This document shows, one piece after another, positions 4,112-27,558 of a DNA stretch of 64,000 nucleotides. This stretch comes from Desulfurivibrio alkaliphilus AHT 2 (lineage in GTDB: Bacteria > Desulfobacterota > Desulfobulbia > Desulfobulbales > Desulfurivibrionaceae). The stretch lies in assembly GCF_000092205.1 (NCBI RefSeq), contig NC_014216.1:2051742-2115741 (forward strand), written 5' to 3'. Every line of letters begins with the position of its first letter. Within the stretch, counting starts at the first letter, position 1. A program made the translations under genes and the position numbers. The notes under the pieces were generated by a model. The model made no database searches and was not told where the DNA came from. It worked only from the letters and a program-made list of their open reading frames with translations.

Positions 4112-4123
4112 TGCGACACCTGA

Positions 4124-9319: not shown

Positions 9320-9371
9320 GCTTGTCTCGTAACAACTGACATTAAAGGCGTAAATGGCGTATCGGTTTCTA

Positions 9372-10544: not shown

Positions 10545-10553
10545 TCAATAACC

Positions 10554-11714: not shown

Positions 11715-11750
11715 GGCTTCAGCAATCCTCCCGATTTGAGAGCACAGTGA

Positions 11751-13562
11751 TCATTTCTGTACTATTGGTCCAGACAACAAAAAAGCCAGCGACGCCATGC
11801 GCAGCAATAGAATTTTTTGTTCGTTATCGGGAGGAAAACTTGCAATGGTTTGAAAACCACAACGTGCAAACTGTTCTTTTGTCTGTGAAAAAACTTCCTG
11901 GAAAAACGCCTGGTTTTCAGCGTTATCGACATACTGGCCGATGAAACTGTCAATATCCCCCCCGGCTTTCCCATCTTTTCGCAGCCATTCGGGCATTCGA
12001 TTGACCAGTTTACGATACACCGCGTTTTTCAAGTGGGTCAAACGATACGCTACCAGATTTTGTGCGGCAAATCCTCCGGTGTTCTCTTTCGGGATTCGGG
12101 CGAGTTCCGGGAATCGTCGTCGATAGAACGCGTTATACAATCTGTCCCCGGCCCGAAGCATTTTCGCGACCCCCATGCAAGCCGTAAAAATTTTTCGGTC
12201 GTAGAATGGACAAAGCGTGTCTGCTCTGCGCATAAAACTGACAGGTCCGCCAGATGTCAAAAGAGCTCCCCTGAAGCGGTGCAACAGCATTTCAATCATA
12301 TCGGCATCTGTAGGGCAATGTTTTTGGAGCCGTTTTACTAGGTCAGTCAGGTGCTGTTTTTCGCGGACTTCAATTGCCTCCACCCAATGGGTCGGCAGTG
12401 CTGATATTTTCCGGCCGTAACCGGTGGCCAGCCTTTCCAGATAAGTCGAGCCAGGGAGGCGCGGTGTTTGGTACCGATCAAGCCCCAAAATAATTTTATA
12501 CAATGGCTCGTTTCGGCGCTTCAACTTGTAATAAAAACCGCCACCCAGGACGACATCACCGATGTGGCCGTCGATAATGTAGGCCGGGTTGTTTCTGGTC
12601 AAAGTTTCCAGGATGGCATACATGTGGCTGCTTTCCAAACTGTCCCCAGTCCCGGTCCCGTACAAAAAGTCTTCCGCGAAACGGCAAGGAGAGTTCGCTG
12701 CGACCTGAAATACTTCGGTCTGAAGTCCAAGCGTCACAGCAACCCTACGTGCGACCATGGCCTCTTGAGTATCAGGGCTATCATAAGTGCACAGTCGCAA
12801 GGACTTCTCCCGGCAATAGGCAGCGATCAATCGTGAGTCATAACCACCGCTGAGCCCTGCCGCTATCGACTCGTCTCCCAAGCGGGCAAAGTAGTCGGTG
12901 AATAGAGCATCAAGATAATCTATCGCTTGACTTTCATCTGTAAGCCGTTGTTCCGGATCAGGGTAGGTCGGATAGTTTTCTTGCGAAATTTCGAGGCGCC
13001 CCGGCTTGTTAAGCGGCAAAGTAATGGACTGGCCAGGGCCAATTCGTTTGACTTCAGCGAACAGCGACTGATGAAAGGGCAAATAACCGTAAGTTAGATA
13101 TTCAGCGCAAGCGAGGTCTGTGGGCGACTCACCATCGGCAAGATCGAACTGGTTGATGCCAATCAGTGTTTCTTTTTCTCCACTTTTGCAATAAAGTGGC
13201 ATGCAAGACAAAAAATCAGCTATCGCAAGTAATTTATTGTTAGCTTTATCTATAATAAACAAGGCAAACATGCCGCCATCGATTTCTAAGCGTACACCGT
13301 CAAGCCCCGTTCGACCGTAAGCCTCAGCCAACAGCGCCAAGGATTCTTTAACCACAAAACTCTTGGCGCGGCTGGCATATAGATGCCCCACACAGATTAA
13401 ACAAAGCGATTTCTGTTCATCTTCACAAAAAACAGGAGAATGCCCCTTGTCGGCGACAACCAACCTGGGCCAGCATGCTCCTACACCGTGCCGCAGGCTA
13501 ATGTAGAATCCACGGGCCGCCGAGTCTTTTTCAATAACTATTTCATGTTGATCTTCGGTCAT
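11751..13562 (-). CDS. Asparagine-synthase-like protein without N-terminal Cys nucleophile
   Basis: A 603-residue protein. The C-terminal half contains AAGLSGGYDSRLIAAYC, the SGGxDS PP-loop that binds ATP in AsnB-type synthetases, followed by DGHIGDVVLGG. The N-terminal half resembles the glutaminase domain (FALFIIDKANNKLLAIADFL, TYGYLPFHQSLFAEVKRIGPG) but the chain begins MTEDQHEIVI, so the Cys that must directly follow the initiator Met in a class II glutaminase is absent. The enzyme probably adenylates a carboxylate and uses free ammonia or another amine. Related proteins occur in exopolysaccharide clusters, where they are thought to amidate uronic acids; that role here is inferred. Confidence 0.8.
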   Translation of the reverse strand: MTEDQHEIVIEKDSAARGFYISLRHGVGACWPRLVVADKGHSPVFCEDEQKSLCLICVGHLYASRAKSFVVKESLALLAEAYGRTGLDGVRLEIDGGMFALFIIDKANNKLLAIADFLSCMPLYCKSGEKETLIGINQFDLADGESPTDLACAEYLTYGYLPFHQSLFAEVKRIGPGQSITLPLNKPGRLEISQENYPTYPDPEQRLTDESQAIDYLDALFTDYFARLGDESIAAGLSGGYDSRLIAAYCREKSLRLCTYDSPDTQEAMVARRVAVTLGLQTEVFQVAANSPCRFAEDFLYGTGTGDSLESSHMYAILETLTRNNPAYIIDGHIGDVVLGGGFYYKLKRRNEPLYKIILGLDRYQTPRLPGSTYLERLATGYGRKISALPTHWVEAIEVREKQHLTDLVKRLQKHCPTDADMIEMLLHRFRGALLTSGGPVSFMRRADTLCPFYDRKIFTACMGVAKMLRAGDRLYNAFYRRRFPELARIPKENTGGFAAQNLVAYRLTHLKNAVYRKLVNRMPEWLRKDGKAGGDIDSFIGQYVDNAENQAFFQEVFSQTKEQFARCGFQTIASFPPDNEQKILLLRMASLAFLLSGPIVQK

Positions 13563-13610
13563 TAATGAGGTCCTAATGGACGCTAATAACTTTTTTAAAT
13601 CAAGAATATG

Positions 13611-15302
13611 TCAGTATCCACATTCTACCTTATCTTTGCCAAAGCCTTCCCGGATATAATCATTAACTGCGCAGGCAGTGTATTCAGCTCTCCAGTTATA
13701 GCGGGATTGCTGTAAGGCTTCTAGCATGAACTCTTCGGTAGAAGCCGTGCCGCTACCAAAGGACTCATTGTATGATCTCAAACTTCTGTCAGGATTGGGA
13801 TAGTCAATTTTAACCCACTCCGAGCCAGACTCATTCTCACCAATTTCTGCCTGAAATCCTGCAATTGTATTGCCTGGTAGGAAGGCGCTGCTGGGATAGG
13901 GACTATAAAATTTGTTATCGGTAAACGTAATCCCGCCAGGGTTAAAATAATTCGCCACTAGCCTATCGGACTCATCACCCATTTGAAACTCGTTATCGTA
14001 TACATTAATAGCACTATACGGGGTCTCACGGTCAGAAAAAGATATAGCCGTCCCCTTATTTTCTACAGTTCCCCATCTTCCAACAACATTTTCATAGATT
14101 TCTGCAGCATCAGTCTCAGATTCAATTCTTATTGCCGGCTCAGTATTTGTTGCCCCTATTCCATCTGTGAAAATATTGCCAAAAACCGATACACCATGAA
14201 TGTGCTCAAGCCTTAGCCCAGTGATATCAGTCCCCTTTGGCCACCTTTCCAGAAACACGTTATAATCTACCATATCCCCGTAAAATGGACCGTAGGCGTT
14301 ACGCCCGTATTGGGTACGATCACTCCTCACAATAAGGTTGTTGTGCATTCTCCCCGCTGTACGGAATGTCACACCTACCCTTTGTGATGCGTAAAAGATA
14401 TTTCTGCGGAGCTCAATATGCCCGTTGTCGCCTTCATGGGCTATATATACATGGCGGTTGCCCGCCACGGGGCTGTAAAACAGATTCTCCTCAAATAATA
14501 AATCATGAGCACCTTCGGAGAAAAATTTGGCCCCAAGAGAACCCTGCTGGCTGTTTTCTACAAAAATATTACGTCGCCAAGAATACCCTTTTAGTTGATT
14601 CCCGCGAGGAAATGCTTGCACGGTATTACCTAGACGGTCGAAGAAACAATCTTCAACGAGTATATCTTTGCCCGATGAACCGGTAGTAACAACACCTGAA
14701 GCGCTGCCAACCTCCCACTCGGCATGAGCCCCCGTAATTCCTGATATTATAAGGTTTTGCGAGTTTCCTATATTAATCATGATAGTGTTGGCGTTTACGT
14801 TAAGTGTTGGCCGGGGGCCAATTCCATAAGAGGCAAGGATAATACGGGCTTGGGTCGATGGGCCTGACCTGTTACTCCAACCACTGAATACTTCATTATT
14901 CCACTTATCTCCACGCTTTAGAAGCAGGATGTCCGGAAATCCATTGCGGACCTGGGCGACGCCAGCGGCTACCGTTGCATAAGCGTTCACGGATCCACTG
15001 GGCTGAAACATCCCGTTCACATCAAAGGTGATATCGGAAATACCGTAATGCTTGCCCGTACTGTCATTGCCCTCTGAGCTGGACACAAAAATCACCCGGG
15101 CATCTTCGTACCCATTTTGGAGCATCGCTGAAAAATTAGTCCATCCAACCTCTGTAAGCGGCAGACCAGTAAAATCGTGAATATCAGCGGGTAGCCTTGG
15201 CCAGACCATTACGCCTATTGGTCTGGATAAAGCACTATTTGCAACGACAAGCATCAACGCAGTTACAACAAAGACATAGAAGCAACATTTACAGTTTTTC
15301 AT
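13611..15302 (-). CDS. Secreted right-handed parallel beta-helix protein
   Basis: A 563-residue protein with a clear signal peptide (Lys-Cys start, hydrophobic core to about residue 26, ALS-R cleavage region). After that come many short repeats with NxLxxSG/NxFxxx patterns such as LIISGITGAHAEWEV, LFEENLFYSPVAG, IELRRNIFYAS, YNVFLERWP and VFGNIFTDG, typical of pectate-lyase-like parallel beta-helices. A strong SD (GGAGGTG) precedes the ATG. In exopolysaccharide operons such proteins are periplasmic polysaccharide lyases, epimerases or scaffold proteins. No catalytic triad can be named from sequence alone, and the base composition is lower in GC than neighbouring genes. Confidence 0.75.
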   Translation of the reverse strand: MKNCKCCFYVFVVTALMLVVANSALSRPIGVMVWPRLPADIHDFTGLPLTEVGWTNFSAMLQNGYEDARVIFVSSSEGNDSTGKHYGISDITFDVNGMFQPSGSVNAYATVAAGVAQVRNGFPDILLLKRGDKWNNEVFSGWSNRSGPSTQARIILASYGIGPRPTLNVNANTIMINIGNSQNLIISGITGAHAEWEVGSASGVVTTGSSGKDILVEDCFFDRLGNTVQAFPRGNQLKGYSWRRNIFVENSQQGSLGAKFFSEGAHDLLFEENLFYSPVAGNRHVYIAHEGDNGHIELRRNIFYASQRVGVTFRTAGRMHNNLIVRSDRTQYGRNAYGPFYGDMVDYNVFLERWPKGTDITGLRLEHIHGVSVFGNIFTDGIGATNTEPAIRIESETDAAEIYENVVGRWGTVENKGTAISFSDRETPYSAINVYDNEFQMGDESDRLVANYFNPGGITFTDNKFYSPYPSSAFLPGNTIAGFQAEIGENESGSEWVKIDYPNPDRSLRSYNESFGSGTASTEEFMLEALQQSRYNWRAEYTACAVNDYIREGFGKDKVECGY

Positions 15303-15315
15303 GGCGCACCTCCAA

Positions 15316-16242
15316 CTATGAGTTAGTTGACCATTTTGCAGTTAGTCTGTCAATTAGATCATCAGAATAAAAATGTTTAATAAACTTTGTAGAATATATT
15401 TTATTACAGGTCTCTCTTGATAACTTTAGATTATTTTTTACATACTCGTGTATCTCATGATATTTGTCGTTTTTATGAAGATGGGAGTGGATCAGATTAA
15501 AACGATCTTCTCCCAAACCAAAAAGTTGTGCTGCACCTTGCTTGAAGCCATTTGATAAATCTTCAAATCTCAACAATAAAATTTCGAAACGATCATCTTT
15601 GATTATCTGGTAACCTTGGTCAACATCAAATCGGTGATCATATACATTAACACCTGTTTCTTCCCCAAAAACCTCATCGTACCAATTGCTCAACAACCAA
15701 CCGGAGGGGTCATCTCGGTCAAAAAGGGTCTGAAAATAATCGATTACCGGACTCTTATTTCCCTCACAATATTTTTCCAGCACTTCCACAAACTGCCCCT
15801 TGGGGTTAAGAAAATGCAGGGAAACAAAAACACTGATCGGCTCGCGAAAAATACTAATAATTTTCCAGGGTTTAGGATATGAACCATCACCAATTTTGGA
15901 GATAACCTCTCCAAGCAATTTGCCCAGCACAAAATTTCTGTCTATTCGGCGCCCGTTTCGCCTTGCTCTGTCAATCCATTCTACGGCTCGTGCTGACGAC
16001 AGGGTATGCACGTGATAAACCGGCATATCAAGGTTTGCGGCAAGCACTGAAGCATAAACACTGGTAGAAGCCACCCGACCATACTGATAAATCAGCACCA
16101 AAGGGGTGCCTTGACGAACCGCTTTATTGATTTTACGGCAATCGAAAAGGTTCTGTATCACTCTTGCACCATTGTAAATCGGCGCCGGCGAGTTGACCAC
16201 AAAACCGGTTACCATAAGCTCTAGGCGCTTTATTATATTCAC
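15316..16242 (-). CDS. Sulfotransferase-like putative capsular polysaccharide protein
   Basis: A 308-residue protein. LVLIYQYGRVASTSVY resembles the P-loop-like PAPS 5'-phosphate site of sulfotransferases, and IISIFREPISVFVSLHFLN resembles the 3'-phosphate site with its conserved Arg. LLSNWYDEVFG recalls the NKWYS-type motif of the putative capsular polysaccharide synthesis family, so it may belong to that group. It would modify the sugar chain, most simply by sulfation. The start is a GTG at 16242; a later ATG at 16212 is possible. Lower GC than its neighbours suggests separate acquisition together with the beta-helix gene. Function is tentative. Confidence 0.6.
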   Translation of the reverse strand: MNIIKRLELMVTGFVVNSPAPIYNGARVIQNLFDCRKINKAVRQGTPLVLIYQYGRVASTSVYASVLAANLDMPVYHVHTLSSARAVEWIDRARRNGRRIDRNFVLGKLLGEVISKIGDGSYPKPWKIISIFREPISVFVSLHFLNPKGQFVEVLEKYCEGNKSPVIDYFQTLFDRDDPSGWLLSNWYDEVFGEETGVNVYDHRFDVDQGYQIIKDDRFEILLLRFEDLSNGFKQGAAQLFGLGEDRFNLIHSHLHKNDKYHEIHEYVKNNLKLSRETCNKIYSTKFIKHFYSDDLIDRLTAKWSTNS

Positions 16243-16269
16243 ACAAAAACCTGTTCAAAGTTCAATAGA

Positions 16270-17697
16270 TTATTGACACCTTCGCATCAGATGAACATGT
16301 CTGCTTACACGACCAAATCTGGGCTCAATGGCCTCTCTTTCTATTTTTCTGCCATATTTTTTGTCCTTATTACCAACAACAACCCCTTCCAAGGATAAAT
16401 ACCAGCCTAACAACGCCCCGGAAGTCATAAGATAGACAGGATTGACCATGGCGTTAAAGAGAGAGTCTAACATAAAAAGAATAACCACCATGCTTAGTAT
16501 GACAGGTGTGATTATCTCTGTAACATCAACTCCCCTTTTTAGGGCCTTACCGCATAAAACAAGCCATGGCCCTAACAACATTGCCACAACCATGCTTATT
16601 AATCCGAAAAACCCCCTGGAATTGAACACGATGGTCCAAAAGGCATCCACCATTTGTATCACATTCCGGCCGGTATCCGGGTCCACCGGCCAGCCACGGC
16701 CGTAGCCTCCCCACCCAAAAAGCGGACTTTCCAGTGCTTTCTGGGAGAACAGATCTTCTTGCAAAAGCCTGATCGCCAATGAGCTGGTACGATCTTCGTC
16801 AAACACCTTGGCGACCAGCACCTCCACGTCGCCTGCGGCCACCATTCCCGAGATACGCAGGCCGATATACAACGGAACCACCAGCAGCAGAAGGGGGAAG
16901 ATGAAATGCAGCCCCGGCTTACGGTAAACAAAGTAGCCGCCACAGCCCAGCGCTAACGCGACCCAGGCGTTGGCAGATTTGCAGAGGATGGTCGTGATGA
17001 CCAGGACCGCAACGATAAAGGCCATGGGAATCCCGCCCAGCCGCTCAACCGCCCGGCTGCGCCACAGCCAGAAGGCAACGGTGGCGCTTAGCGCGATCCA
17101 CAAAGAAACCATCAGCCCGTGCTGCATGAAGACAATGGGTCGAAAACCGTCGTATCTGAAGTGCTGAAGAAAAGAGTGGGGAAAAAAACCATACACCATA
17201 TTACTGAGTTGCGGACTCATCCTGATCTCATAGAGGGCCAGGATGGCATAGACAAAACCACCAATGACCACGGCCAGGCAGAGATCACGCAGTGTTTCAT
17301 TGTTCTTGAAGTAGATACGGCCGGCCAGATAGGGAATACCCCAAGTCATAATCTGGCTGTAAAATCCGGACAACCCGTCATAAAGGCCAAGTTGATTGGT
17401 TAACGACGTGGGAATCGGCGCCAGGCACCAAAGCACCATGGGCAAATCATATATTCTCCATTTGAAATTGGCCTTAAAGTATTGCCCAGACAGCCAGCCG
17501 CCCAAGATCAATCCCATCGAAATGGCGACATTCTTGTTATAGGGCGGGATGCCCTCCCAGCTATAGCCGGTGGCCGGCAAAAGCAGCCAACCGCCGATTA
17601 CTGCCACCAGCACCGCCCGGTGGGGCTTCAGGGTGAAGAAAAGCATAACCGTGAACGGCACCCAGCCAAAAAGCATAATGGGAACCAGCGGGGTCAT
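16270..17697 (-). CDS. O-antigen ligase/polymerase-like membrane protein
   Basis: A 475-residue protein with about ten to twelve predicted membrane helices and a large periplasmic loop around residues 300-370 (FGWGGYGRGWPVDPDTGR), the layout of the Wzy_C/O-antigen ligase superfamily. Such proteins polymerise lipid-linked repeat units or ligate the chain to an acceptor on the periplasmic side. It lies directly downstream of the WecG-like gene in the exopolysaccharide operon and is the only candidate polymerase in the window. It is not an exosortase: the length, helix pattern and motifs do not fit EpsH/XrtA. Confidence 0.8.
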   Translation of the reverse strand: MTPLVPIMLFGWVPFTVMLFFTLKPHRAVLVAVIGGWLLLPATGYSWEGIPPYNKNVAISMGLILGGWLSGQYFKANFKWRIYDLPMVLWCLAPIPTSLTNQLGLYDGLSGFYSQIMTWGIPYLAGRIYFKNNETLRDLCLAVVIGGFVYAILALYEIRMSPQLSNMVYGFFPHSFLQHFRYDGFRPIVFMQHGLMVSLWIALSATVAFWLWRSRAVERLGGIPMAFIVAVLVITTILCKSANAWVALALGCGGYFVYRKPGLHFIFPLLLLVVPLYIGLRISGMVAAGDVEVLVAKVFDEDRTSSLAIRLLQEDLFSQKALESPLFGWGGYGRGWPVDPDTGRNVIQMVDAFWTIVFNSRGFFGLISMVVAMLLGPWLVLCGKALKRGVDVTEIITPVILSMVVILFMLDSLFNAMVNPVYLMTSGALLGWYLSLEGVVVGNKDKKYGRKIEREAIEPRFGRVSRHVHLMRRCQ

Positions 17698-17703
17698 GGC
17701 TTT

Positions 17704-18843
17704 TCACTCCCTGCCCGCAGGCTGGGCTTGAATCTCAAAAAAACGGCATATCTGAGCCAGGCGGCCATGGATATTGGTTAATTGCAATTGCCGATTTTGC
17801 TTCTGCTGCTGCCTGGCCAGAATCAGCAACAGGGCCATGAAGGCGCCATCGGCAAATTCAGTTTGGCGGAAATCCAGGGTAAGGTCCTTGCCGCTTTGCA
17901 CGGCGCGGCTGCACAGCTCACGCAGGGGTGAGTCCGGGGTCAGCCGGAGGTTGCGGCCCAGCGTGAGGGTAATGGTGGTGTCGTTTTCCTTTATTTGCGC
18001 TTGGTGGTCGGCGGGTTGCCGGCGGAAACGCTTTTCCCAGGCTCGATAGCGCAGCCAGCCGGGCAGGCGGCCGGCCAGGGCCCGCAGCAGCAGCAGCCCG
18101 TCGGCGGCGTAGCGGGAGAAGAGCTTCGGCTCTTGGAGAATTCGCCAGACCCACTCCAGCCCCATGCGGCTGACCAGTTTGGGCGCCCGTTGCACGGTGC
18201 CGGCCAGGAAGTTAACGGTGGCGCCCAGGTGACTGATGGTTTTGGCCCGCAGCCGGTGGCGGTTATGTTCGATCCAGCGGGTGCCCTTTTGGGCCCCCAA
18301 AGCCACCAGCAGGATATCCGGCTTGGCCTGGTTGATGGTGTTGATAATCTCCTCGCTGCTCATCTGCTCAACACTGCCGAAGCCGGGGTTGAGGAAACCC
18401 ACCGCCCGCAAGCCACCCCGACGGGCATTGACCTTGGCCACCGCCTGGCGGCCGGCCTCATCTTCGCCGCCGAAGAAGAAAATGGTCAACGGCTGGGCGG
18501 GGTTGGCTTCCTGGTTGAGTTCCTGGATCAGGGTAGAGCCCGGCACCAGCTCGGAGATGGGGTAACCCAGCAGCCGGGCCAGCCAGAGCAGGGGTTTGCC
18601 GTCCAGGGTTACCGTGTCGCTGTTGAGCACAGCGGCGCGGAATTGGGGATCGCACCAGGCCTGGGCCACCCAGTTGACATTGATGGTGGAAAGCACGTTA
18701 TTTCCTTCCCCGCGGGCATTGGCCCGCAACAGCTCTTTGGTTGCCACCAGGGTCAGGTTGTCCACCGGTAGCCCGAAGAGGCAAAAAACTTCCCGCCGCA
18801 AGTCTCGGTCAACCTCATCCTTGCGGCTATCGTGCAGCTTCAC
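17704..18843 (-). CDS. WecG/TagA/CpsF glycosyltransferase fused to a STAS-like domain
   Basis: A 379-residue protein. Residues about 20-265 are a GT26 enzyme: TINVNWVAQAW, SDTVTLDGKPLLWLARLLG, FFFGGEDEAGRQAV, LLVALGAQKGTRWIEHNR and LGATVNFLAGTVQRAPKLV are family signatures. Residues about 285-379 form a separate unit (TITLTLGRNLRLTPDSPL..., LTLDFRQTEFADGAFMALLL, ICRFFEI) with the beta-alpha pattern of STAS/anti-sigma-antagonist domains, although the usual phosphorylatable Ser after the D-x-S turn is replaced by ADGAF. GT26 enzymes add the second sugar to a polyprenyl-diphospho-sugar. The start is a GTG directly after the TAA of the upstream phosphotransferase gene, indicating translational coupling. 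Confidence 0.82.
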   Translation of the reverse strand: MKLHDSRKDEVDRDLRREVFCLFGLPVDNLTLVATKELLRANARGEGNNVLSTINVNWVAQAWCDPQFRAAVLNSDTVTLDGKPLLWLARLLGYPISELVPGSTLIQELNQEANPAQPLTIFFFGGEDEAGRQAVAKVNARRGGLRAVGFLNPGFGSVEQMSSEEIINTINQAKPDILLVALGAQKGTRWIEHNRHRLRAKTISHLGATVNFLAGTVQRAPKLVSRMGLEWVWRILQEPKLFSRYAADGLLLLRALAGRLPGWLRYRAWEKRFRRQPADHQAQIKENDTTITLTLGRNLRLTPDSPLRELCSRAVQSGKDLTLDFRQTEFADGAFMALLLILARQQQKQNRQLQLTNIHGRLAQICRFFEIQAQPAGRE

Positions 18844-20259
18844 TTACACCGCCCCTTTGGAAAACAGGACGGCGGGCACGGTTTTCAGCAGAATTTTAAT
18901 ATCCATCCAGAGCGACCAGTTGTCTATGTACTCCAGGTCCAGGGCCAGCCATTTTTCAAAGGGCAAGTCGCTGCGGCCGGATATCTGCCACAGGCAGGTC
19001 ACCCCCGGCTTAACGCTGAAGCGCTTGCGCTGGATGCCACGGTCAAACAGGTCCACATCGCGGATGGACATGGGGCGGGGCCCCACCAGGCTCATTTCGC
19101 CACGCAACACGTTAAACAACTGGGGCAGCTCATCGAGGCTGGTGCGGCGGATAAAGCGGCCCACCCGGGTTACCCGGGGGTCGTTGCTGATCTTGAAGAT
19201 CGGCCCCTGGGCCTCATTGAGGTGCTCGATCTCCTTCATCTTTTCCTCGGCGTCCATGTACATGGAACGGAACTTAAACATGGGAAACAGGTGCTTGCGC
19301 AACCCCACCCGCTGCTGCACGAAGATGGCCGGGCCGGGGGAATCGAGCTTGACCGCCAGGGCCACCACGGCCATCAGCGGCAACACCAGCGGCATGGCCA
19401 GCAGGGTCACCGTGAGATCAAAAACCCGCTTGGCAAAAAGCTTGCTTTCATCCTGGGCCACCGGCTCCATGGTCAGCAGAGGCAGGTTGCCCACCTGAGC
19501 GAGGCTGACCCGCGCCACCTGGACGTTGAAGATATCGGCCATGAAGCGCAGCTTGATCCCCTCTTCCTCGCAGGCATGGGCAATATGCTCGGCGTCTTCC
19601 AGCAGCGAACGGGGAATGGCGATGATTACCTCATCCACCACATTGCTTTTCAGACATTGGCTGATCTGATCAATATTGCCGATAACCGGCACGCCGTTAA
19701 TGTCGCTGCCTATCCGCTGAGATTCAGGATCCAGGTGGCCGACAATTTTGATGCCCCACTCCGCCTGCTCGTGCAGATTGCGCGCCAGTTCCCGGGCCCG
19801 TTCGCCAGTGCCGATGATCAGCACCCGCAGGGCGCCGCTGCCATCCTGCAGGGACTGGCGAAACTGGGCCAGCATCGCCGCCCGGACCATCACCAGGGCA
19901 ACAAAACCCAGGCCCGCAAAACCAATGATCACCATCCGGCTCACATAATCAATCTCCAGGAAAAACAACAGCGACAGCAGGACGCCGATGGTAAGCGCCA
20001 TACCGCGGAAGATTGCCCAGGCATAGCCCATAAAGGTAGCGTAGCGGGGGTTTTGGTAGGCTCCGAAATAGGAAAGAAAAAGGATCAGCAGCGTCAGCAG
20101 CAGCGGCAGCAAAAAGATGTGGGAATAGAGGTTCAGCTGCCCGGCTTCGGGCAGCAGCAGGTTGCGCGCCCAGAACGCGACCAAAAAGGCGGCCACGGTG
20201 CAGACCACATCCAAGGAAAACAAGGTGCGGTCCAGTTCTTTGCTGCGCGGGTCGTACAT
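18844..20259 (-). CDS. Exopolysaccharide polyprenyl-phosphate glycosylphosphotransferase (WbaP/WcaJ type)
   Basis: A 471-residue initiating enzyme. Four or five membrane helices occupy residues 15-125, a CoA-binding-like Rossmann region follows (VLIIGTGERARELARN), and the C-terminal catalytic domain contains KLDSPGPAIFVQQRVG, FKFRSM, TSLDELPQLFNVLRGEMSLVGPRP and VKPGVTCLWQISGRSDL. The DE pair in SLDELPQ is the catalytic dyad of polytopic phosphoglycosyltransferases. It moves a sugar-1-phosphate from a UDP-sugar to undecaprenyl phosphate and so begins repeat-unit assembly in the inner membrane. It is the second gene of the operon, ten bases after the lipoprotein stop. It resembles the EpsB/EpsL-type transferases of exosortase-linked clusters. 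Confidence 0.92.
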   Translation of the reverse strand: MYDPRSKELDRTLFSLDVVCTVAAFLVAFWARNLLLPEAGQLNLYSHIFLLPLLLTLLILFLSYFGAYQNPRYATFMGYAWAIFRGMALTIGVLLSLLFFLEIDYVSRMVIIGFAGLGFVALVMVRAAMLAQFRQSLQDGSGALRVLIIGTGERARELARNLHEQAEWGIKIVGHLDPESQRIGSDINGVPVIGNIDQISQCLKSNVVDEVIIAIPRSLLEDAEHIAHACEEEGIKLRFMADIFNVQVARVSLAQVGNLPLLTMEPVAQDESKLFAKRVFDLTVTLLAMPLVLPLMAVVALAVKLDSPGPAIFVQQRVGLRKHLFPMFKFRSMYMDAEEKMKEIEHLNEAQGPIFKISNDPRVTRVGRFIRRTSLDELPQLFNVLRGEMSLVGPRPMSIRDVDLFDRGIQRKRFSVKPGVTCLWQISGRSDLPFEKWLALDLEYIDNWSLWMDIKILLKTVPAVLFSKGAV

Positions 20260-20269: not shown

Positions 20270-21628
20270 CTAAATTACCTGAAAATTGTCGGTCTTCTGC
20301 AGCAGCCGGCCAATAAACTTTTCTGCATCGTAGGCCTCATCCCGCTCCCTGATCCGCAGGGCCAGATGACTGGAACGGTTGGCTTCAAGCTCCAGTTTCA
20401 GGCTGGCGCCTTCATCTTCATCCTTAAGTATCAGTACCGCCAGGCCGGGGCTGTCGACTTCTTCCTCGACCCGCCAACTGCCAGTGAACCTTTGCCCATT
20501 GCCCAAGGTAAGCTCCACGTTACCCCCGACTCCGTTGTCGCTGGAAAGAAAGCGGAGCTGGCTATCCTCGCCCAGCTCAAACACCTGCCCCACCAGGGCG
20601 CCATGATAAATCGGCTCCACCGGCTCGACGTTATTAAATCGGTTGATCGCGACGTAAGCAGTCTCGATTTGGGACAACAGCTCGTCAGCAATGGCATTAA
20701 TCACTATCTCATTCTTCTGGTGCCGATGCAAATAGTAATGCAGCCCGAGCTGGGGTTGCTCGGCGTCCACCAGAGCTTTGAAGTCGTTGGCGCTAACTTC
20801 CAACGGCTCACCCTGAAGCGCCTTGCGGATCAGCTCCTGCTTCCACCAGTTAAGGATGGCCGGCAGGGTTTCAGCCACTTCCCGCATGCTCACCGGCGGC
20901 AGATCGTAGCCCTCCGGCAGCAGGGCCTCAATATCGTTCCGGGCCGCCGGCTCCGTCGCATACCGCAACCCTTCCTGCAAGCCTGCCAGCAGTTGGCCTC
21001 CACTGGATACCAACGCCTGACCATTAAACTCGTCGTAATCCCGGCCCACCAAGAACAAATCCAGCAGCGCCCCCACATAGAGGTTGGCCCGCAGATCAAC
21101 CAAGGCATCATCACTAACGGGGCCAGTTAACTCGGCCAACCCCGCCATGGGGTCGATATTAAGATCGTAGGTCTGGTAACCGTTGAGTGGGGACAACAAC
21201 GATGAAATGTCGTTGCCCGAGAAGCCCAGGGCGGCCAGGGTGGTCAGCGGCGAAAAAATCACAGGATCGGCAGCTTCCTCCCCCACCCGGTAAAGCAGCA
21301 TGCCGGTGAAGGGCAGGCCCTGGCGATAGCCGCCCTCCCGCATGACCAGGAGACTGCCGGCGGCCACCGGCTTGGCGAAGCTTAACCGCCCTTCGGCGTC
21401 CGAGGTGGTGGAAATCTGCTCCCCAGCATCCCAACGACCGTTGCCGTTGGTATCTTCAAAAAAAGTGGCCCCGACGATATAAGGTTCCACCACCACCGCC
21501 TGGTTAATCTCCACCGCCCCCCCTTGGCCTGACGAACCGCTGGAACTGCCGGAACTACCGGAGCTGCAGGCTGTGAGCGCCGCAAACAACGCCACCAGCG
21601 CTACATAAACCCGCCATCCCTTCCCCAT
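20270..21628 (-). CDS. Cell-surface lipoprotein, paralogue 1
   Basis: A 452-residue lipoprotein. ATG 21628 follows an AGGGGG ribosome-binding site; a TTG five codons upstream is less likely. The signal peptide ends in LTAC, a lipobox, followed by a Ser/Gly linker. Then comes VVEPYIVGATFFEDTNGNGR, an EF-hand-like NGNGRWDAGEQ loop as found in SdrD-B/carboxypeptidase-regulatory-like folds, and about 330 residues shared with the lipoprotein at 21813-23330 (for example SMREVAETLPAILNWWKQEL in both). It opens the exopolysaccharide operon, so it could serve in export, anchoring or sensing of the polymer. I do not recognise a named family for the C-terminal part. Confidence 0.8.
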   Translation of the reverse strand: MGKGWRVYVALVALFAALTACSSGSSGSSSGSSGQGGAVEINQAVVVEPYIVGATFFEDTNGNGRWDAGEQISTTSDAEGRLSFAKPVAAGSLLVMREGGYRQGLPFTGMLLYRVGEEAADPVIFSPLTTLAALGFSGNDISSLLSPLNGYQTYDLNIDPMAGLAELTGPVSDDALVDLRANLYVGALLDLFLVGRDYDEFNGQALVSSGGQLLAGLQEGLRYATEPAARNDIEALLPEGYDLPPVSMREVAETLPAILNWWKQELIRKALQGEPLEVSANDFKALVDAEQPQLGLHYYLHRHQKNEIVINAIADELLSQIETAYVAINRFNNVEPVEPIYHGALVGQVFELGEDSQLRFLSSDNGVGGNVELTLGNGQRFTGSWRVEEEVDSPGLAVLILKDEDEGASLKLELEANRSSHLALRIRERDEAYDAEKFIGRLLQKTDNFQVI

Positions 21629-21812: not shown

Positions 21813-23330
21813 TCAGCTAATCTGAAAGTTACCGGCGGCATTCATTAACTGGCCCAGAAATCCTGTTTCGTCGTAGTCATCAGCCCGAGCCCTGATCCGC
21901 AGGGAAAGATGACTGTTACGGTTGGCTTCCAGTTCCAATTCCAGGCTGGCATTATCGTCCTTCAGGATCAGCAGCGAAATTTCGCCCCCGACCTCCTCAA
22001 TCTGCCAGGTGCCGCTCAGGCTGTTGTCTCCCAAAACGAGCTCCACCAAGCCCTGGGCGCCTTCCGAATCTTTAGAGAAACGGAGCCGACCGTTGTCACC
22101 CAGCAGCAGAGGCTGTTCCAGCAGGACGCCATAATTGATCGCTTCCACCGGCCCTACGGTATTGTTGCGGCCAATCGCCACGTAGGTGGTCTCGATTGCG
22201 GGCAGCAACCCTGCGGCAATGGCACTCTGAACTCCGGCGTCATCCTGGTGGTGACGCAGGTAGTAATGCAGCCCCAGCTCGGCTTGCACGGCGTCGACCA
22301 TGTCCATGAAATCATCAGCGGAAACCGCCACCGGCTGGTCTTGCAGCGCCTTGCTGATCAATTCCTGCTTCCACCAGTTGAGGATGGCCGGCAGGGTTTC
22401 AGCCACTTCCCGCATGCTCACCGGCGGCAGGTCGTAACCCATGGGCAACAGCGCGATGATATCGTTCTGGGCCCCCGGGTCCGTCGCATAAAGCAAACCT
22501 TCACGCAGGCCATAAAGCAGTTCATAGTTGTCGGGCTCCAGATTGTAGCCATTAAGCTCTTCAATGGTCCGACCCACCTGGAACAGATCCAGCAGTGCCC
22601 CCACGTAGAGGTTGGCCCGCAGATCAACCAGGTCGTCCTGGTTTACCGAGCCGTTGAGCCCCACCAGCCCGGCCATGGGATCGACGGCTAAATCATAGTC
22701 CCGATAGCCGTTAACCGCGGTCAACAGGGATGAAATATCGCCGTCTGCAAAAGCCCGGGCCGACAGGGTGGTCAGCGGGGTTACCACCACGGTATCGCTG
22801 TCTTCCTCGGCGACCAGGTGCATGAGCTGACCGGCAAAAGGCAAGCCCTGGTGGGTACCACGCTCCAGCATGATAATGGCGTTGCCGGCAGGAACCGGGG
22901 TGGCAAAGGCGAAACGGCCTTGCTCGTCGGAGGGCGTAGAAATTTGCTCTCCTTCATCCCAGCGGCCATTACCGTTTACATCTTCAAAAAAAGTGGCGCC
23001 GACAATGTAAGGATCGACCACCACGCCACCGGTAATCCCGGCAATAGTAGCTTCGTCGTTGCCTTCGTCGCTGCCTTCATCGGTGCTGTCGGCAGCACCT
23101 TCATCAGAATCGGCAACGGGACTGCTTTCCGTTATGGTTGAACTGCTTTCCTTGCTGGGGGCGCTGCTGCCGGTGCTTACGGTAGAGCCGTCATCAGAAT
23201 CGGCGACGGTACTGCCTTCCGTGCTGGTGGAACTGCTGCCACCGGAACTACTGCCGGAATCACCACTACAGGCGGCCAGGAGCAAGAGGAGAAGAAGAAG
23301 GGGGAAAAAGCGTGCGATTTTAGTTTTCAT
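21813..23330 (-). CDS. Cell-surface lipoprotein, paralogue 2 (riboswitch-controlled)
   Basis: A 505-residue lipoprotein with a Leu-rich signal peptide and LLAAC lipobox. A Ser/Thr/Asp/Glu-rich low-complexity linker of about 80 residues follows, much longer than in paralogue 1; then VVVDPYIVGATFFEDVNGNG with the calcium-loop-like NGNGRWDEGEQ and the shared C-terminal region (PLTTLSA, MAGLVGLNG, SMREVAETLPAILNWWKQEL). It is a tandem duplicate of the gene at 20270-21628 but has its own control region: a c-di-GMP riboswitch and a sigma54 promoter. The acidic linker would hold the domain away from the outer membrane. Its molecular role is unknown; a matrix or adhesion role is inferred from regulation and neighbours. 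Confidence 0.85.
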   Translation of the reverse strand: MKTKIARFFPLLLLLLLLAACSGDSGSSSGGSSSTSTEGSTVADSDDGSTVSTGSSAPSKESSSTITESSPVADSDEGAADSTDEGSDEGNDEATIAGITGGVVVDPYIVGATFFEDVNGNGRWDEGEQISTPSDEQGRFAFATPVPAGNAIIMLERGTHQGLPFAGQLMHLVAEEDSDTVVVTPLTTLSARAFADGDISSLLTAVNGYRDYDLAVDPMAGLVGLNGSVNQDDLVDLRANLYVGALLDLFQVGRTIEELNGYNLEPDNYELLYGLREGLLYATDPGAQNDIIALLPMGYDLPPVSMREVAETLPAILNWWKQELISKALQDQPVAVSADDFMDMVDAVQAELGLHYYLRHHQDDAGVQSAIAAGLLPAIETTYVAIGRNNTVGPVEAINYGVLLEQPLLLGDNGRLRFSKDSEGAQGLVELVLGDNSLSGTWQIEEVGGEISLLILKDDNASLELELEANRNSHLSLRIRARADDYDETGFLGQLMNAAGNFQIS

Positions 23331-23332: not shown

Positions 23333-23357
23333 CGGCACCTCATTAAGTTAGATGCCG
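23333..23357 (-). promoter_or_regulatory. SD-sequestering hairpin below the riboswitch
   Basis: In the leader of paralogue 2, CGGCATC (rc of 23351-23357) can pair with GGTGCCG (rc of 23333-23339) over seven bases including one U-G pair. The stem takes up two G residues of the GAGG ribosome-binding site (23338-23341), five bases before the ATG. It is a plausible expression platform that would let the aptamer upstream control translation. Confidence 0.55.
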
Positions 23358-23387
23358 TATGGTCTGTCACCCACTTGGCTGACAGTG

Positions 23388-23485
23388 ACCATTCGGCAAC
23401 CCCGCTGCCATTTCCTGTCTTAACAGGAAGAAGGCCGGTGGCTTTGCGTCCCATGCTTTCGCGATGGTTTGCCTTTTTCGTGGTA
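23388..23485 (-). ncRNA. Cyclic-di-GMP-I (GEMM) riboswitch aptamer
   Basis: The minus strand carries the hallmark segments of the class I c-di-GMP aptamer in the right order: GGCAAACC, then a GNRA-closed hairpin (GCGAAAGC), GGGACGCAAAGCC, ACCGGCC, a variable hairpin (TTCCTGTTAAGACAGGAA) and GGCAGCGGGGTTGCCGA. The GACGCAAAGCC and GCGGGGTTGCCGA blocks contain the ligand-contacting nucleotides and match the Vibrio cholerae Vc2 layout closely. It lies 60 bases upstream of the paralogue 2 start codon and directly below a sigma54 element. A small diguanylate cyclase gene lies 9.5 kb away in the window. Whether it is an on or off switch cannot be told from sequence. Confidence 0.93.
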
Positions 23486-23511
23486 AAATGCTTGTAGCGC
23501 TCACTGGTAAT

Positions 23512-23528
23512 TGCAAATAGCATACCAA
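23512..23528 (-). promoter_or_regulatory. Sigma54 promoter of the riboswitch-lipoprotein gene
   Basis: The minus strand reads TTGGTATGCTATTTGCA: GG and GC at exactly the -24/-12 spacing of RpoN promoters. A start about 12 bases below would fall near 23501, leaving the complete aptamer intact at the 5' end of the transcript. Confidence 0.65.
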
Positions 23529-23636
23529 CCCCGTTTTGATTAAAATTTTATACGTTATTACGGCGCGTTAACCGGCGCCGCCACCATCCCAAGACCGCAA
23601 TTTTCACCCCGGTTTTCCTGGCTGCCTGACATAAAA

Positions 23637-23654
23637 TGTCACCCAACGGCGACA
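23637..23654. promoter_or_regulatory. GlrR-type upstream activator site TGTC-N10-GACA
   Basis: TGTC-ACCCAACGGC-GACA lies about 110 bases above the sigma54 element at 23512-23528. TGTC-N10-GACA is the known binding motif of enterobacterial GlrR/QseF. Two further dyads, TGACAT-AAA-ATGTCA just before it and TGACA-N6-TGTCA at about 23669-23683, share the GACA/TGTC half-site. A GlrR-like regulator is encoded 330 bases away. Confidence 0.6.
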
Positions 23655-23699
23655 TTTGCCGATCTCTGTGACATTTTTTGTCAGCCCGGTTTGCAGTAT

Positions 23700-23985: not shown

Positions 23986-25341
23986 TCAATCCTTGAACTC
24001 ACCTGGCGAAATACCATGTTTTTTCAGCATGTTATAGAGATCGGCCCGGTATTTGCCGGCCAGCTTCGCCGCCCGGCTGATGTTGCCGGCGGTGGCCTTG
24101 AGCAGATCGCGCAGATAGTTTTTTTCAAAACCGTCCCGGGCATCTTTCAGGGTCGGCAGCGAACTGTGGTCGGCATTGGCCGGCAGGATCAGTTCCGCGC
24201 CGATGGTGCCGCTTCGAGCCATGGCCAGCGCAAACTCGATGGCGTTTTCCAGCTCCCGGACGTTGCCGGGCCAGTCGTGCAGCATTAGTTTTTGCAGCGC
24301 GGCGGGGGCGATGGTCCTTTTCTTTTTACCCGTCTGCTCGCTGTGCCGGCGGAGGAAGTACTCCACCAGGGGCGGGATGTCTTCCTTTCTATCCCGCAAA
24401 GGCGGAATATGCACCGGGATCACATGCACCCGGTAGAACAGGTCTTCACGAAAGGCACCTTTTTTCACCTCCTCCTTCAGGTTCTTGTTGGTGGCGACAA
24501 TCACCCGAACGTCGATGGGGATCTGCTGTTCGCCGCCCAGGGGCATGATGGTCCGCTCCTGCAGCACCCGCAACAGCTTGCCCTGCAGGGGCAACGGTAA
24601 CTCGCCGATTTCGTCCAGAAAGACCGTTCCCTGCTCGGCCTGGGCGAAAAGCCCCGGCTTCTTGCGGATCGCGCCGGTGAAGGCCCCTTTCTCGTGCCCG
24701 AACAGTTCGCTTTCCAGCAGGTTTTCAGGGATGGCGGCGCAGTTGATGGCCAGGAAGGGAGCTTCCCGACGCGGGCCGGCCAGGTGAATGGCTTTGGCGA
24801 TCAGCTCTTTGCCGGTGCCGCTGGCCCCATAGATGGCCACGGTGGAGTCGGAATCGGCGATGCGCGCCACCTGGTCGAGCACCCGGCGCATCGGCTCACT
24901 GCGCGCGATGATGTTGCCGAAATCGCGTTTCTCCTCGACCAGCTCCCGCAGCCGATGAAGCTCTCCGTTCAGCCGGGCTTGTTCCAGGGCCCGCTCGATC
25001 TGCAGGATCAGTTCCCGGGAGTCGAAGGGCTTGGTCAGGTAAGTGAAGGCCCCGCGCGCCATGGCGTCCACCGCGCTCTCAATGCTGCCGTGCGCGGTGA
25101 GGATGATCACCGGCAGCCCCGGGTCATCCCGGTGCAGTTCCTCCATCAGGGTAATACCGTCCTGGCTGACCAGTTGCAGGTCGATTACCGCGGCGTCGAA
25201 CGGCTGTTGGGCCACCAGCCTTTTCGCCTCGTTTTCGTGGCCGACGGCAGCTACCTGGTAACCGGAGGCCTCCAGCCGGATCCGGATCAAATCCAGCAGG
25301 TTCAAATCGTCATCGACCAGCAATATCCTTTTGGCTACCAT
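23986..25341 (-). CDS. glrR: Sigma54-dependent response regulator, GlrR/QseF-like
   Basis: A 451-residue regulator. Residues 5-120 are a receiver domain (ILLVDDDLNLL acid pair, phospho-acceptor Asp in AAVIDLQLVS, Lys in YLTKPFDS). Residues about 140-375 are the AAA+ sigma54-activation domain with GASGTGKELIA (Walker A), GAFTGA (sigma54 contact loop), GTVFLDEIGEL (Walker B) and an RxxDLFYR stretch. Residues 400-451 are a Fis-type HTH ending NISRAAKLAGKYRADLYNML, strikingly like the end of enterobacterial GlrR. ATG 25341 has a GAGGTG SD six bases upstream. It is the last gene of the glrK-qseG-glrR operon and should activate the RpoN promoters found nearby. Confidence 0.85.
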   Translation of the reverse strand: MVAKRILLVDDDLNLLDLIRIRLEASGYQVAAVGHENEAKRLVAQQPFDAAVIDLQLVSQDGITLMEELHRDDPGLPVIILTAHGSIESAVDAMARGAFTYLTKPFDSRELILQIERALEQARLNGELHRLRELVEEKRDFGNIIARSEPMRRVLDQVARIADSDSTVAIYGASGTGKELIAKAIHLAGPRREAPFLAINCAAIPENLLESELFGHEKGAFTGAIRKKPGLFAQAEQGTVFLDEIGELPLPLQGKLLRVLQERTIMPLGGEQQIPIDVRVIVATNKNLKEEVKKGAFREDLFYRVHVIPVHIPPLRDRKEDIPPLVEYFLRRHSEQTGKKKRTIAPAALQKLMLHDWPGNVRELENAIEFALAMARSGTIGAELILPANADHSSLPTLKDARDGFEKNYLRDLLKATAGNISRAAKLAGKYRADLYNMLKKHGISPGEFKD

Positions 25342-25351
25342 CTCTCGCACC

Positions 25352-26131
25352 TCAACGGGTGAGCTGCCTTTTCTGCTCTTCGATTTGCCGGTCTATCTGG
25401 CGCATCTTGTCTAAGACCTCGAAGAGCCCAAGCCAGACCCGGGCCTCTTCAGCCAGGCGACTGTCGGGAAATTCGCCGGCAATGCGGGCGAAATAATCCC
25501 TGGCCTGCTGGTAATCCCGGGCCGGATTGTCGCCGTGGGCGTAGATCAGGCCCAGGTTGTAGAGCGCCTCGTCGGCCGGCGGACCGGCTCCGGCCTGCTG
25601 CAGAATTTGTTCGTTTTTCCTCGCCGCCTCTTCAAAATTCTGATCTTCAACCAGCGGCCGGGGCAGGGCCGCCGTCGCCTCGGACGCTGTTTTTAGCCGC
25701 TCCGAGAGGGTGGCGATGGCCAGGTCCCTGGCGGCCATGGCATCGTATAGATCGACCAGGATGTTGGCCTCCGGGACCAGCGGCGAGTTGGGAAAGTGCC
25801 GGATCAGTTGCGCGAAGTATTGTCTCGAGAGCTGGGCATTCCTGTCTTTGAAGGCGGGATCGGCGTAAACCAGACCCAAGACATACAGGGCCAGGTCGAC
25901 CGGAGCCTCGGCCTCGCTTGCCCCCATTACCGCTTGGCTTTGCCGGATCACGATGTCGAAGGCGCCGGCGGCCAGGTGCTCGCGGTAGCGGGCCAGCTCA
26001 TGCTGGGCGGGGCGTTCGGCGGGGGGCGACGGCACCGGCGCGCAAGCCGCCCCCGCCAGGGCCAGGATCATTCCGCCAACGGCAAGGTAAAGTAAAAAGT
26101 GCTGCCTTTTTCGATTTGACTGGTCGCCCAC
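25352..26131 (-). CDS. qseG: QseG-like lipoprotein with TPR-type repeats
   Basis: A 259-residue protein between the histidine kinase and the regulator, the place of QseG in enterobacterial glrK-qseG-glrR operons. An N-terminal hydrophobic segment leads to GAACAP, a plausible though imperfect lipobox. The rest is helical with two TPR-like units (LYVLGLVYADPAFKDRNAQL and LYNLGLIYAHGDNPARDYQQ) followed by PDSRLAEEARVWLGLFEVLD. A GTG at 26131 with a GGAGG SD six bases upstream is the best start and overlaps the kinase gene by 64 bases, so translation is probably coupled. QseG in Escherichia coli is an outer-membrane lipoprotein that touches the kinase sensor; a similar role is inferred. Confidence 0.75.
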   Translation of the reverse strand: MGDQSNRKRQHFLLYLAVGGMILALAGAACAPVPSPPAERPAQHELARYREHLAAGAFDIVIRQSQAVMGASEAEAPVDLALYVLGLVYADPAFKDRNAQLSRQYFAQLIRHFPNSPLVPEANILVDLYDAMAARDLAIATLSERLKTASEATAALPRPLVEDQNFEEAARKNEQILQQAGAGPPADEALYNLGLIYAHGDNPARDYQQARDYFARIAGEFPDSRLAEEARVWLGLFEVLDKMRQIDRQIEEQKRQLTR

Positions 26132-27558
26132 ACCTTGCCTCCGTGCGCGAGAATGATCTGCTTCACCATGGCCAGCCCAAGGCCGCTGCCTTTGACCTTG
26201 TCGCTCCGGGCCGGAAGCACCTGCTGGAACTTGAGAAAAATGCGCTCCAAATCGCCCTCGGGAATGCCGATGCCGGTGTCTTGCACGGCCACTTCCAGCA
26301 TCTTGTCCCGGACCGTGGCGGTCAGGGTGATGGTACCTCCTTCCGGGGTGAATTTAATGGCGTTGCCCACCAGGTTGCGCACCACCTGCATGATTCTTTC
26401 CTGGTCCACATTGACCGGCGGCAAAGCGGCGATGTGGTTTACTATGCGTACCCCCTTGGCCTCGGCCAGGGGCTGCAACCCCTGCAGGGCATCGCGGACC
26501 AGGGTGGACAAAGAGGTCCGGGAGTAATGATCGACCACCATCCCTGCTTCCATTCTGGCCAGGTCCAGCAGGGAGTTGACCCGGTTGATCAGGCGGTCAC
26601 TTTCTTGGGAGATGATTAACAGGATGCGCTGCTGATGATTATTGATCTCCCCGCCCACGCGGTCAAGCAAAATGTGGGTCCCTTCCTTAATGGAAGCCAG
26701 GGGCGTGCGCAGCTCGTGAGACATGTCGGCAAAAAAGGCCGATTTCAGGTTGTCCAGCTCCTGTAGTTTGTGACACATGCTGTTGAGGGCTATGGCCAAC
26801 TCTTTAATGATCGGAGGCGATGCGATTTGGAGATCACCCTGAAAGTTGCCATGGGCGATCTCCCGGGTCTTGGCCTTGATGACCTGCAGCGGTCGAGTGA
26901 TGCTGCGAGTGACCACCGCGGCCACCAGCAGACCGATAAACAGCGCCCCGATGGTGATCAAGACGGCGATGACGGCGGCCTGCTCCCCGGTCTCTCGCAG
27001 GTTGGAGATTTTGGCAAACACGCTCTTTTCGCTCGCCTGCCGGATGCCCTGCAAGGTGGCAATCAACTCGGCAACCACCTGTTGCTTCTCCTCATCGTAC
27101 CGCTCGGCGTCATAGGCCGTAGCGCTCCGGCGCAACCGGTGCTCCTCCTCGGCCAGCCTGGTAAATTCAAGGTGCTGCAAGGTGACGGCCTGCAGGGCTT
27201 GGTTAATCTCGGGATCATCCAGCTCACCTTGGGCGATCTGCAGCAGCCGTGCAAACTCGACCCCGTCCTCCAGGTAGTTGCGGTAGAGCTGCTCATCGTT
27301 CAGCAGCACAAACAGGCGCTCGTTGCGCGCCTGGGAAAGCAACAGGTCGGAGAGCCGGCCGGAGAACTCCACCACCGACGCGTCATGCTGAACGATGGAC
27401 TGCACCACCTGGTTGAACCGATTGAGGTGGTAGATAAAAAAGAGGCTCACCCCGGCCAGCATGACGAAAAAGACCAGGGAGCTGATAAGCAGGCGTGCGA
27501 AGATAGACAGTTTCAAGGTCGACGAGCCCGGTTTCAGGTTGTTTTTAACATTTTTCAC
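26068..27558 (-). CDS. glrK: Sensor histidine kinase, GlrK/QseE-like
   Basis: A 496-residue inner-membrane kinase. Transmembrane segments lie near residues 22-45 and 195-220 with a helical periplasmic domain between them; a HAMP domain follows (RSITRPLQVIKAKTREIAHG), then the H-box MSHELRTPLASIKEG, the N-box NLVGNAIKFTPEGG, and G-boxes DTGIGIPEGDLERIF and GSGLGLAMVKQII. It would autophosphorylate in response to an envelope signal and pass phosphate to the GlrR-like regulator. The start is GTG at 27558 behind GGAGGT. The gene begins the operon under the promoter/palindrome module at 27584-27662. Confidence 0.85.
   Translation of the reverse strand: MKNVKNNLKPGSSTLKLSIFARLLISSLVFFVMLAGVSLFFIYHLNRFNQVVQSIVQHDASVVEFSGRLSDLLLSQARNERLFVLLNDEQLYRNYLEDGVEFARLLQIAQGELDDPEINQALQAVTLQHLEFTRLAEEEHRLRRSATAYDAERYDEEKQQVVAELIATLQGIRQASEKSVFAKISNLRETGEQAAVIAVLITIGALFIGLLVAAVVTRSITRPLQVIKAKTREIAHGNFQGDLQIASPPIIKELAIALNSMCHKLQELDNLKSAFFADMSHELRTPLASIKEGTHILLDRVGGEINNHQQRILLIISQESDRLINRVNSLLDLARMEAGMVVDHYSRTSLSTLVRDALQGLQPLAEAKGVRIVNHIAALPPVNVDQERIMQVVRNLVGNAIKFTPEGGTITLTATVRDKMLEVAVQDTGIGIPEGDLERIFLKFQQVLPARSDKVKGSGLGLAMVKQIILAHGGKVWATSQIEKGSTFYFTLPLAE

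Follow-up and report, generated by a model that had tools for sequence, protein, structure and literature searches.

The locus examined here raises the question of which signals decide on the expression of a predicted lipoprotein gene, and in which direction the riboswitch in its leader acts. The original prediction described an AND gate, in which an envelope signal acting through GlrR and sigma-54 drives transcription and c-di-GMP permits translation. Our analysis of the window, i.e., the whole 64,000-nucleotide stretch of Desulfurivibrio alkaliphilus AHT 2, points to a different logic. We consider it probable that a two-signal leader placed before polysaccharide genes works as an "activator AND NOT c-di-GMP" gate, for which we infer promoter use, ligand response, direction and operon alike. 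Judging from the sequence, an enhancer-binding protein would occupy TGTC/GACA half-sites about 125-180 bp above the start and open a sigma-54 promoter, yielding an RNA whose 5' end precedes a c-di-GMP-I aptamer by about 18 nt. With c-di-GMP bound, UGCCGAAUGGU would pair with ACCACG, and the linker CGGCAUCU together with AGGUGCCG would bury the ribosome site (OFF). Without ligand, UGCCGAAUGGU would pair with the linker GACCAUACGGCA and the ribosome site would stay unpaired by the linker (ON). What the gate would control is lipoprotein translation, possibly along with that of the polysaccharide genes if these are co-transcribed.

Organization of the Locus

The minus strand carries TGTC/GACA half-sites, a sigma-54 box, a class I c-di-GMP aptamer and a ribosome-site hairpin, all four present and in the order originally predicted (Table 1). 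The aptamer had been described as a Vc2-like GEMM, which was borne out by the covariance-model search, since the GEMM-I model (RF01051), whose gathering score is 35, matched at 80.1 bits (E 3.9e-14) and the alignment flags none of the consensus pairs as broken.

Table 1. Features of the leader and of the neighboring genes in the window.
Feature	Position	Strand	Remark
TGACA-N5-TGTCA site, distal copy	23669..23683	.	pilin-promoter type
TGTC-N10-GACA site (exact)	23637..23654	.	GACA half (minus-strand reading) common with proximal TGACA-N5-TGTCA
TGACA-N5-TGTCA site, proximal copy	23627..23641	.	
Sigma-54 -24/-12 box TGGTATGCTATTTGCA	23512..23527	-	predicted start near 23501, deduced from the box
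Class I c-di-GMP aptamer RF01051	23392..23483	-	full-length covariance-model match
Anti-P1 (ON) fold	23353..23398	-	aptamer 3' strand UGCCGAAUGGUC with GACCAUACGGCA
Ribosome-site hairpin (OFF fold)	23333..23357	-	CGGCAUCU...AGGUGCCG
Predicted lipoprotein	21813..23330	-	505 aa
Paralogous predicted lipoprotein	20270..21628	-	59% identity to the first lipoprotein (its residues 82-504)
Exopolysaccharide sugar transferase	18844..20259	-	TIGR03025 above cut-off
WecG/TagA-type glycosyltransferase with STAS domain	17704..18843	-	
Further genes, many polysaccharide-type	1616..17697	-	glycosyltransferases, FemAB/GNAT, deacetylase, aminotransferase, capsule-like NKWYS
GlrR-like sigma-54 activator	23986..25350	-	47% identical to E. 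coli GlrR
TPR protein at qseG position	25352..26131	-	
Histidine kinase at glrK position	26068..27558	-	25% identical
GGDEF gene (diguanylate cyclase)	33012-34109		about 9.4 kb from the leader

The predicted lipoprotein had no match in Pfam or NCBIfam, and its structure model was poor (mean pLDDT 52.9), with no PDB match at E<=0.001. Its lipobox cysteine, Cys21, is invariant across four aligned sequences. Matches to the protein were found in 6 of 58 genomes, including the window's own; those in genomes G001 and G003 are good and the other three are partial or weak. The gene that follows the lipoprotein is the sugar transferase in G001 (76% identical) and the WecG-STAS gene in G003 (64% identical), and the lipoprotein gene stands before polysaccharide genes in all three genomes. 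The earlier designation of the target as a surface lipoprotein was too narrow for the gene of a predicted lipoprotein that heads a polysaccharide locus. The polysaccharide genes are perhaps co-transcribed with it and hence also controlled. The two lipoprotein genes are separated by about 180 bases containing a 26-base inverted repeat, and two genes further along the run (13611-15302 and 16270-17697) had no Pfam match. A nearby diguanylate cyclase had also been adduced; the gene is real, but since the genome has 31 GGDEF matches it is uninformative, and we rejected it as evidence.

Operator and Identity of the Activator

The claim that a GlrR-like activator is encoded next door holds (Table 1). 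For this neighbor the best NCBIfam model is GlrR, which it matches at 469.9 bits without reaching the cut-off of 763. The gene order of kinase, TPR protein and regulator resembles glrK-qseG-glrR, and BLAST similarity of the middle TPR protein to QseG is absent.

The GlrR-type site survived in part. An exact TGTC-N10-GACA is present, but its GACA half also belongs to a TGACA-N5-TGTCA site, and in the sister genome G003 the TGTC/GACA spacer is N9 rather than N10. The window holds two copies of the motif against 0.39 expected, a number reached by 8 of 100 shuffles, and the genome holds 19 against 26 for the reversed pattern, which is not above chance. The second copy in the window (46765-46782) lies inside an open frame (46523-47779) and is probably due to chance. 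Thus, where the GlrR/QseF regulon is recognized by several conserved TGTN12ACA sites, this leader offers a single exact one, with a changed spacer in the sister genome and no genome enrichment.

A different operator form stands out from its controls. The looser TGAC-N7-GTCA occurs twice in the window leader and twice in that of G003, with 2 copies in the window against 0.44 expected and a modest excess in the genome (35 versus 23 reversed). The strict TGACA-N5-TGTCA, two sites of which are kept in G003 with one mismatch each, is found five times in the genome and its reversed pattern never; two of the five copies belong to this leader. Of the remaining three, two are found at a type IV pilin gene, at distances of 115 and 188 bp upstream of its sigma-54 box. 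This pilin locus (L126:5047-5250 and 5394-5978, genome about 2661546-2662477), with its sigma-54 box and two TGACA-N5-TGTCA sites, has the operator form seen in the window. In the family, 19 of 27 genomes carry the motif, in 43 copies against 11 reversed. A subset of these matches, namely 20 loci from 19 genomes (L126, L129-L147), was inspected, and at 11 of them, in eleven different genomes, the matching strand has a major-pilin start GFTLVELMIVVAIIGILAA no further than about 310 bp away, while at the other 9 such a pilin is absent. A sigma-54 box scoring at least 18 stands between site and pilin start at 6 of the 11. At E<=1e-120, a GlrR orthologue was detected in the window's own genome and in none of the other 26 of the family (the candidates scored numbering 62 of a larger total in many genomes), and at this threshold none was detected in ten of the eleven genomes with pilin sites.

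PilR is known from other bacteria as the sigma-54 activator of pilin genes, as described in the accessible parts of two papers (PMC2725144, PMC6058289). Given that TGACA-N5-TGTCA recurs at family pilin genes, the operator is of the pilin-promoter kind, and a PilR-like protein becomes a serious candidate for the activator. The motif is common to our leader and the family pilin promoters; its assignment to PilR is one that we infer. That the same switch is served by a putative PilR-like activator and not, or not only, by GlrR is compatible with the gate proposed above, and we give it close to an even chance. On its side are the excess of the strict motif over its reversed control, the pilin genes behind the inspected sites in genomes mostly devoid of a detected GlrR orthologue, and the conservation of two such sites in G003. 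Against it, no PilR gene was found when the neighbors of four activators were inspected, and a GlrR-like gene is adjacent here, with the C-terminus of a similar regulator recognizable by eye at a contig end of G003. In addition, TGTC-N10-GACA resembles the E. coli glmY sites, and the looser TGAC-N7-GTCA is just modestly over its control. GlrR as the sole activator was kept as a candidate, although the non-enriched motif, the spacer change, the pilin-type sites and the scarcity of orthologues weigh against it. We thus amend the activator from GlrR to a putative GlrR or PilR-like protein.

PrsR, the PEP-CTERM regulator, was rejected, as none of the genome's matches reached the TIGR02915 cut-off. 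Elsewhere in the window, sigma-54-like boxes with 1 and 3 mismatches (27825-27840 and 31139-31154, plus strand) precede two genes that match PEP-CTERM weakly (27932-28531 and 31185-32201), between which a PrsT gene (28578-30941, TIGR02917 above cut-off) is located. By eye, the upstream repeats in this region contain GTTCCG/CGGAAC or GTTCG/CGAAC and not TGTC.

Alternative Folds and Direction of the Switch

Four strands of the leader, P (ACCACG, aptamer 5'), A (UGCCGAAUGGU, aptamer 3'), T (ACCAUACGGCA, linker) and H (AGGUGCCG, ribosome site), can pair either as P-A plus T-H or as A-T, the two options being mutually exclusive. The T-H hairpin (CGGCAUCU/AGGUGCCG) comprises 8 pairs, one of them U-G, in agreement with the predicted hairpin able to hide the ribosome-binding site. 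In energy folding with P1 imposed, the T-H probability was 1.00, 0.98 and 1.00 for the leaders of the window, G003 and G001, respectively. Unconstrained, it was 0.56, 0.15 and 0.67, while that of A-T (anti-P1) was 0.16, 0.51 and 0.21, so that the free equilibrium fold of the window already prefers the hidden ribosome site. Without ligand, P1 loses to anti-P1 by 3.3, 6.3 and 5.5 kcal/mol in the three leaders, and in transcripts that stop just short of the ribosome site, strand A pairs with downstream sequence at probabilities of 0.79, 0.82 and 0.83.

Closure of P1 leaves the linker free for the ribosome site, and c-di-GMP is hence predicted to turn the switch off. At equilibrium, ON and OFF were hardly separated when 44 leaders were compared. 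Differences between free and bound Shine-Dalgarno exposure above 0.2 went in the OFF direction at 2 of 21 sigma-54 loci and in the opposite direction at none, and were split 2 versus 2 among 23 other loci; the window itself gave 0.48 (0.46 without masking) versus 0.46. Since the free and bound equilibrium folds differ so little, the OFF direction rests on folding order and on the exclusivity of the pairings. Pairing of the A strand with downstream sequence at a mean probability of at least 0.5, in transcripts ending before the ribosome site, was observed in 17 of 20 usable sigma-54 leaders (of 25) against 24.7% of shuffles (n = 400), and in 12 of 27 leaders lacking the box, against 23.0% of shuffles.

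The comparative evidence comes from five aligned leaders, one each from the window and G003 and the other three all from G001. In this alignment the anti-P1 helix has 92.7% of its cells paired and three pairs changed on both sides. Among 500 shuffles, the paired cells and the covariation score were each reached by 3 and the two-sided cells by 10, while the other two of the five measures are ordinary, three two-sided pairs being reached by 116 and the number of pair types by 128; slid versions of the helix gave a covariation of 0. The T-H helix, with 77.5% of cells paired and no two-sided change, is neither supported nor opposed by the alignment, and part of it is disrupted in two tandem copies from G001. 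On visual inspection, the outer pairs of P-A shift jointly from ACCA:UGGU in the window and G003 to AUCC:GGAU in G001, a change left uncounted because the alignment register differs. Of 86 leaders tested, 45 have an aptamer that ends in UGCCG, and 6 of these contain the three-part match UGCCG-CGGCA-UGCCG, whereas 500 shuffles gave 0.49 on average and 5 at most. With any 5-mer allowed, 17 of 86 leaders matched, where shuffles averaged 6.3 and reached at most 12; this test was set aside as many of its matches are unlike that of the window. At another locus, L055, tandem class I aptamers (2926-3019 and 3347-3440), each having a platform of its own and neither followed directly by a long open frame, look like relics of the lipoprotein leader.

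Taken together, the folding models make it probable that c-di-GMP hides the ribosome site, i.e., that the leader is a translational OFF switch, dependent on folding order. Exopolysaccharide is usually promoted by c-di-GMP, which would favor the AND gate of the original prediction, in which the ligand exposes the ribosome site while GlrR and sigma-54 drive transcription. Class I switches do act both ways, two of those in V. cholerae responding oppositely according to the accessible part of PMC6366702. However, in all three leaders folded, P1 closure hides the ribosome site and no fold freeing it was seen. We consequently regard the AND gate as unlikely and replace it by a probable AND-NOT.

Source of the Transcript and Ligand of the Aptamer

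The -24/-12 element was recovered as a GG-N10-GC box with 2 of 12 mismatches to TGGCACGN4TTGCW. At up to 3 mismatches this consensus matches the window 111 times, against 124.9 in shuffles, so the case for the box rests on position and conservation: it lies 29 nt from the aptamer, and the identical distance is kept in G003. The genome encodes rpoN (one Sigma54_DBD match) and 21 matches to enhancer-binding proteins that include the ATPase part.

A strong hairpin behind glrR (z -4.45), whose 3' arm ends in eight U, is read as a terminator, in which case the leader needs a promoter of its own. Between this hairpin and the aptamer, no sigma-70-like site was listed on the minus strand in the scan, which together with the hairpin makes the sigma-54 promoter the likely source of the leader transcript. 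The alternative that the main source is read-through of glrR transcription or a sigma-70 promoter that escaped notice, with the riboswitch acting alone, draws on two observations, namely that the terminator scan does not list the hairpin, and that the lipoprotein leader of G001 has a riboswitch but no sigma-54 box passing the thresholds (best score 12.5). Apart from the hairpin and the scan for sigma-70-like sites, it is opposed by the enrichment of sigma-54 boxes above such aptamers across the order (see below), and we hold it to be improbable. The sigma-54 promoter is thus retained as the likely source.

As for the ligand, the sequence identifies the aptamer as a class I c-di-GMP riboswitch with c-di-GMP as the predicted ligand. 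It and two orthologous leaders have, in the alignment, a G at the residue that we take to be position 20. Some aptamers of the order have an A there, like cGAMP-sensing relatives (L027, L031, L091, L098 and L038, of which L027 and L031 also carry sigma-54 boxes). Replacing A by G at position 20 is reported to convert an aptamer for cGAMP to one for c-di-GMP (PMC6456294). A cGAMP ligand (GEMM-Ib), suggested by aptamers of the same fold in Geobacter (PMC8835794, accessible part) and by those with A in the order, is very improbable here and was rejected on account of the G.

The genome (one contig of 3,097,763 bases) holds two class I aptamers. The second (L002:1501-1580, genome 469735-469814) lies 58 nt below a perfect TGGCACGN4TTGCT sigma-54 box, TGGCACGCCGTTTGCT, and its downstream gene is multihaem cytochrome-like, with several CXXCH motifs by eye.

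Recurrence of Sigma-54 Boxes at Aptamers of the Order

The order-wide sample consisted of 129 aptamers, 128 among the matches listed (the best-scoring, not all) plus the second of the genome, and it is neither complete nor independent, as some are close copies. A sigma-54 box scoring at least 18 on the sense strand within 110 nt upstream was found for 29 of 127 sampled aptamers, whereas the antisense strand gave 1 and windows further up gave 4, 1, 3 and 1. Loci L015, L021 and L033, with contig ends within about 160 nt upstream, had been excluded in advance, and two of the 129 with less than 330 nt were dropped at the count. In a first batch, 23 of 88 had the box, against a mean of 0.56 and a maximum of 3 in composition shuffles; for aptamers of the window type (GG in the pocket, at least 86 nt) the figure was 18 of 36.

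The proteins downstream are often of the surface type. A fn3-like query domain, itself taken from one sigma-54 locus, was detected behind 15 of 25 sigma-54 loci (score at least 17) and 7 of 63 others, the loci not being independent. Pfam analysis of 10 of the 25 revealed Ig-like, cadherin or PKD repeats in 7, with fn3 below cut-off in 3. Loci L020, L023, L028, L013, L036, L032 and L029, from several genera of the order, have a sigma-54 box and a class I aptamer before long Ig-like, cadherin or PKD proteins. The arrangement of known parts thus seems, from these sequence surveys, to recur before surface-protein genes in relatives.

Earlier work put forward the idea that the cell exterior is under the control of sigma-54 (PMC3162934). 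A pairing of sigma-54 with a GEMM or c-di-GMP riboswitch was not described among the literature matches listed, a set with subscription papers mostly outside it, nor does it appear in the accessible parts of PMC12316311, PMC4641369 and PMC10599522. As the parts are known singly, it is their stacking that makes the prediction, namely transcription by an enhancer-binding protein and translation vetoed by c-di-GMP. Given that the boxes recur at aptamers, often before surface-type proteins, one leader may be informative for many. A possible, though on balance doubtful, extension is that of a standing module of this order of sulfur bacteria, probably Desulfobulbales, in which transcription is turned on by an enhancer-binding protein (here possibly PilR) and translation is turned off by c-di-GMP; surface polysaccharide and giant cadherin/Ig-like proteins would then be made at an active pilus or envelope signal and low c-di-GMP. 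If true, this would reverse the usual expectation that c-di-GMP favors such surface components. Because the polysaccharide locus carries an operator of the form seen at pilin promoters, pili and polymer may also be under shared control.

Comparison with Known Systems

As a full-length match to the c-di-GMP-I family (RF01051), the aptamer is unremarkable, and the particularity of the window lies in its platform and promoter. The platform resembles that of Cd1 of C. difficile, which, in the accessible part of PMC9262584, has the same order of P, A, T and H strands, pairs A with T when ligand-free and is turned off when the ligand leaves T and H to pair. However, Cd1 stops transcription at a terminator, while in the window the H strand is the ribosome site. 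The GEMM riboswitches before fibronectin type III proteins in Geobacter (PMC2996986) share the aptamer class and the surface-type targets, many relatives in the order also preceding fn3, cadherin or Ig-like proteins; a sigma-54 promoter is not named in the accessible part of that paper, and the lipoprotein of the window is without such domains.

With the E. coli glmY system under GlrR/QseF (PMC6075780, accessible part), the window shares the glrK-qseG-glrR-like gene order, the activator at 47% identity and a TGTC-N10-GACA above a sigma-54 box. It differs in having one such site instead of three, no glmY match in Rfam, a middle protein unrelated by BLAST and an activator below the cut-off of the GlrR model. 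Finally, compared with the pilA promoters under PilR and sigma-54 (PMC2725144, PMC6058289, accessible parts), the target is not a pilin but a predicted lipoprotein and the link to PilR is putative, whereas the likeness lies in the operator, since TGACA-N5-TGTCA at the pilin genes of the family stands about 110-190 bp above the sigma-54 box, as it does here.
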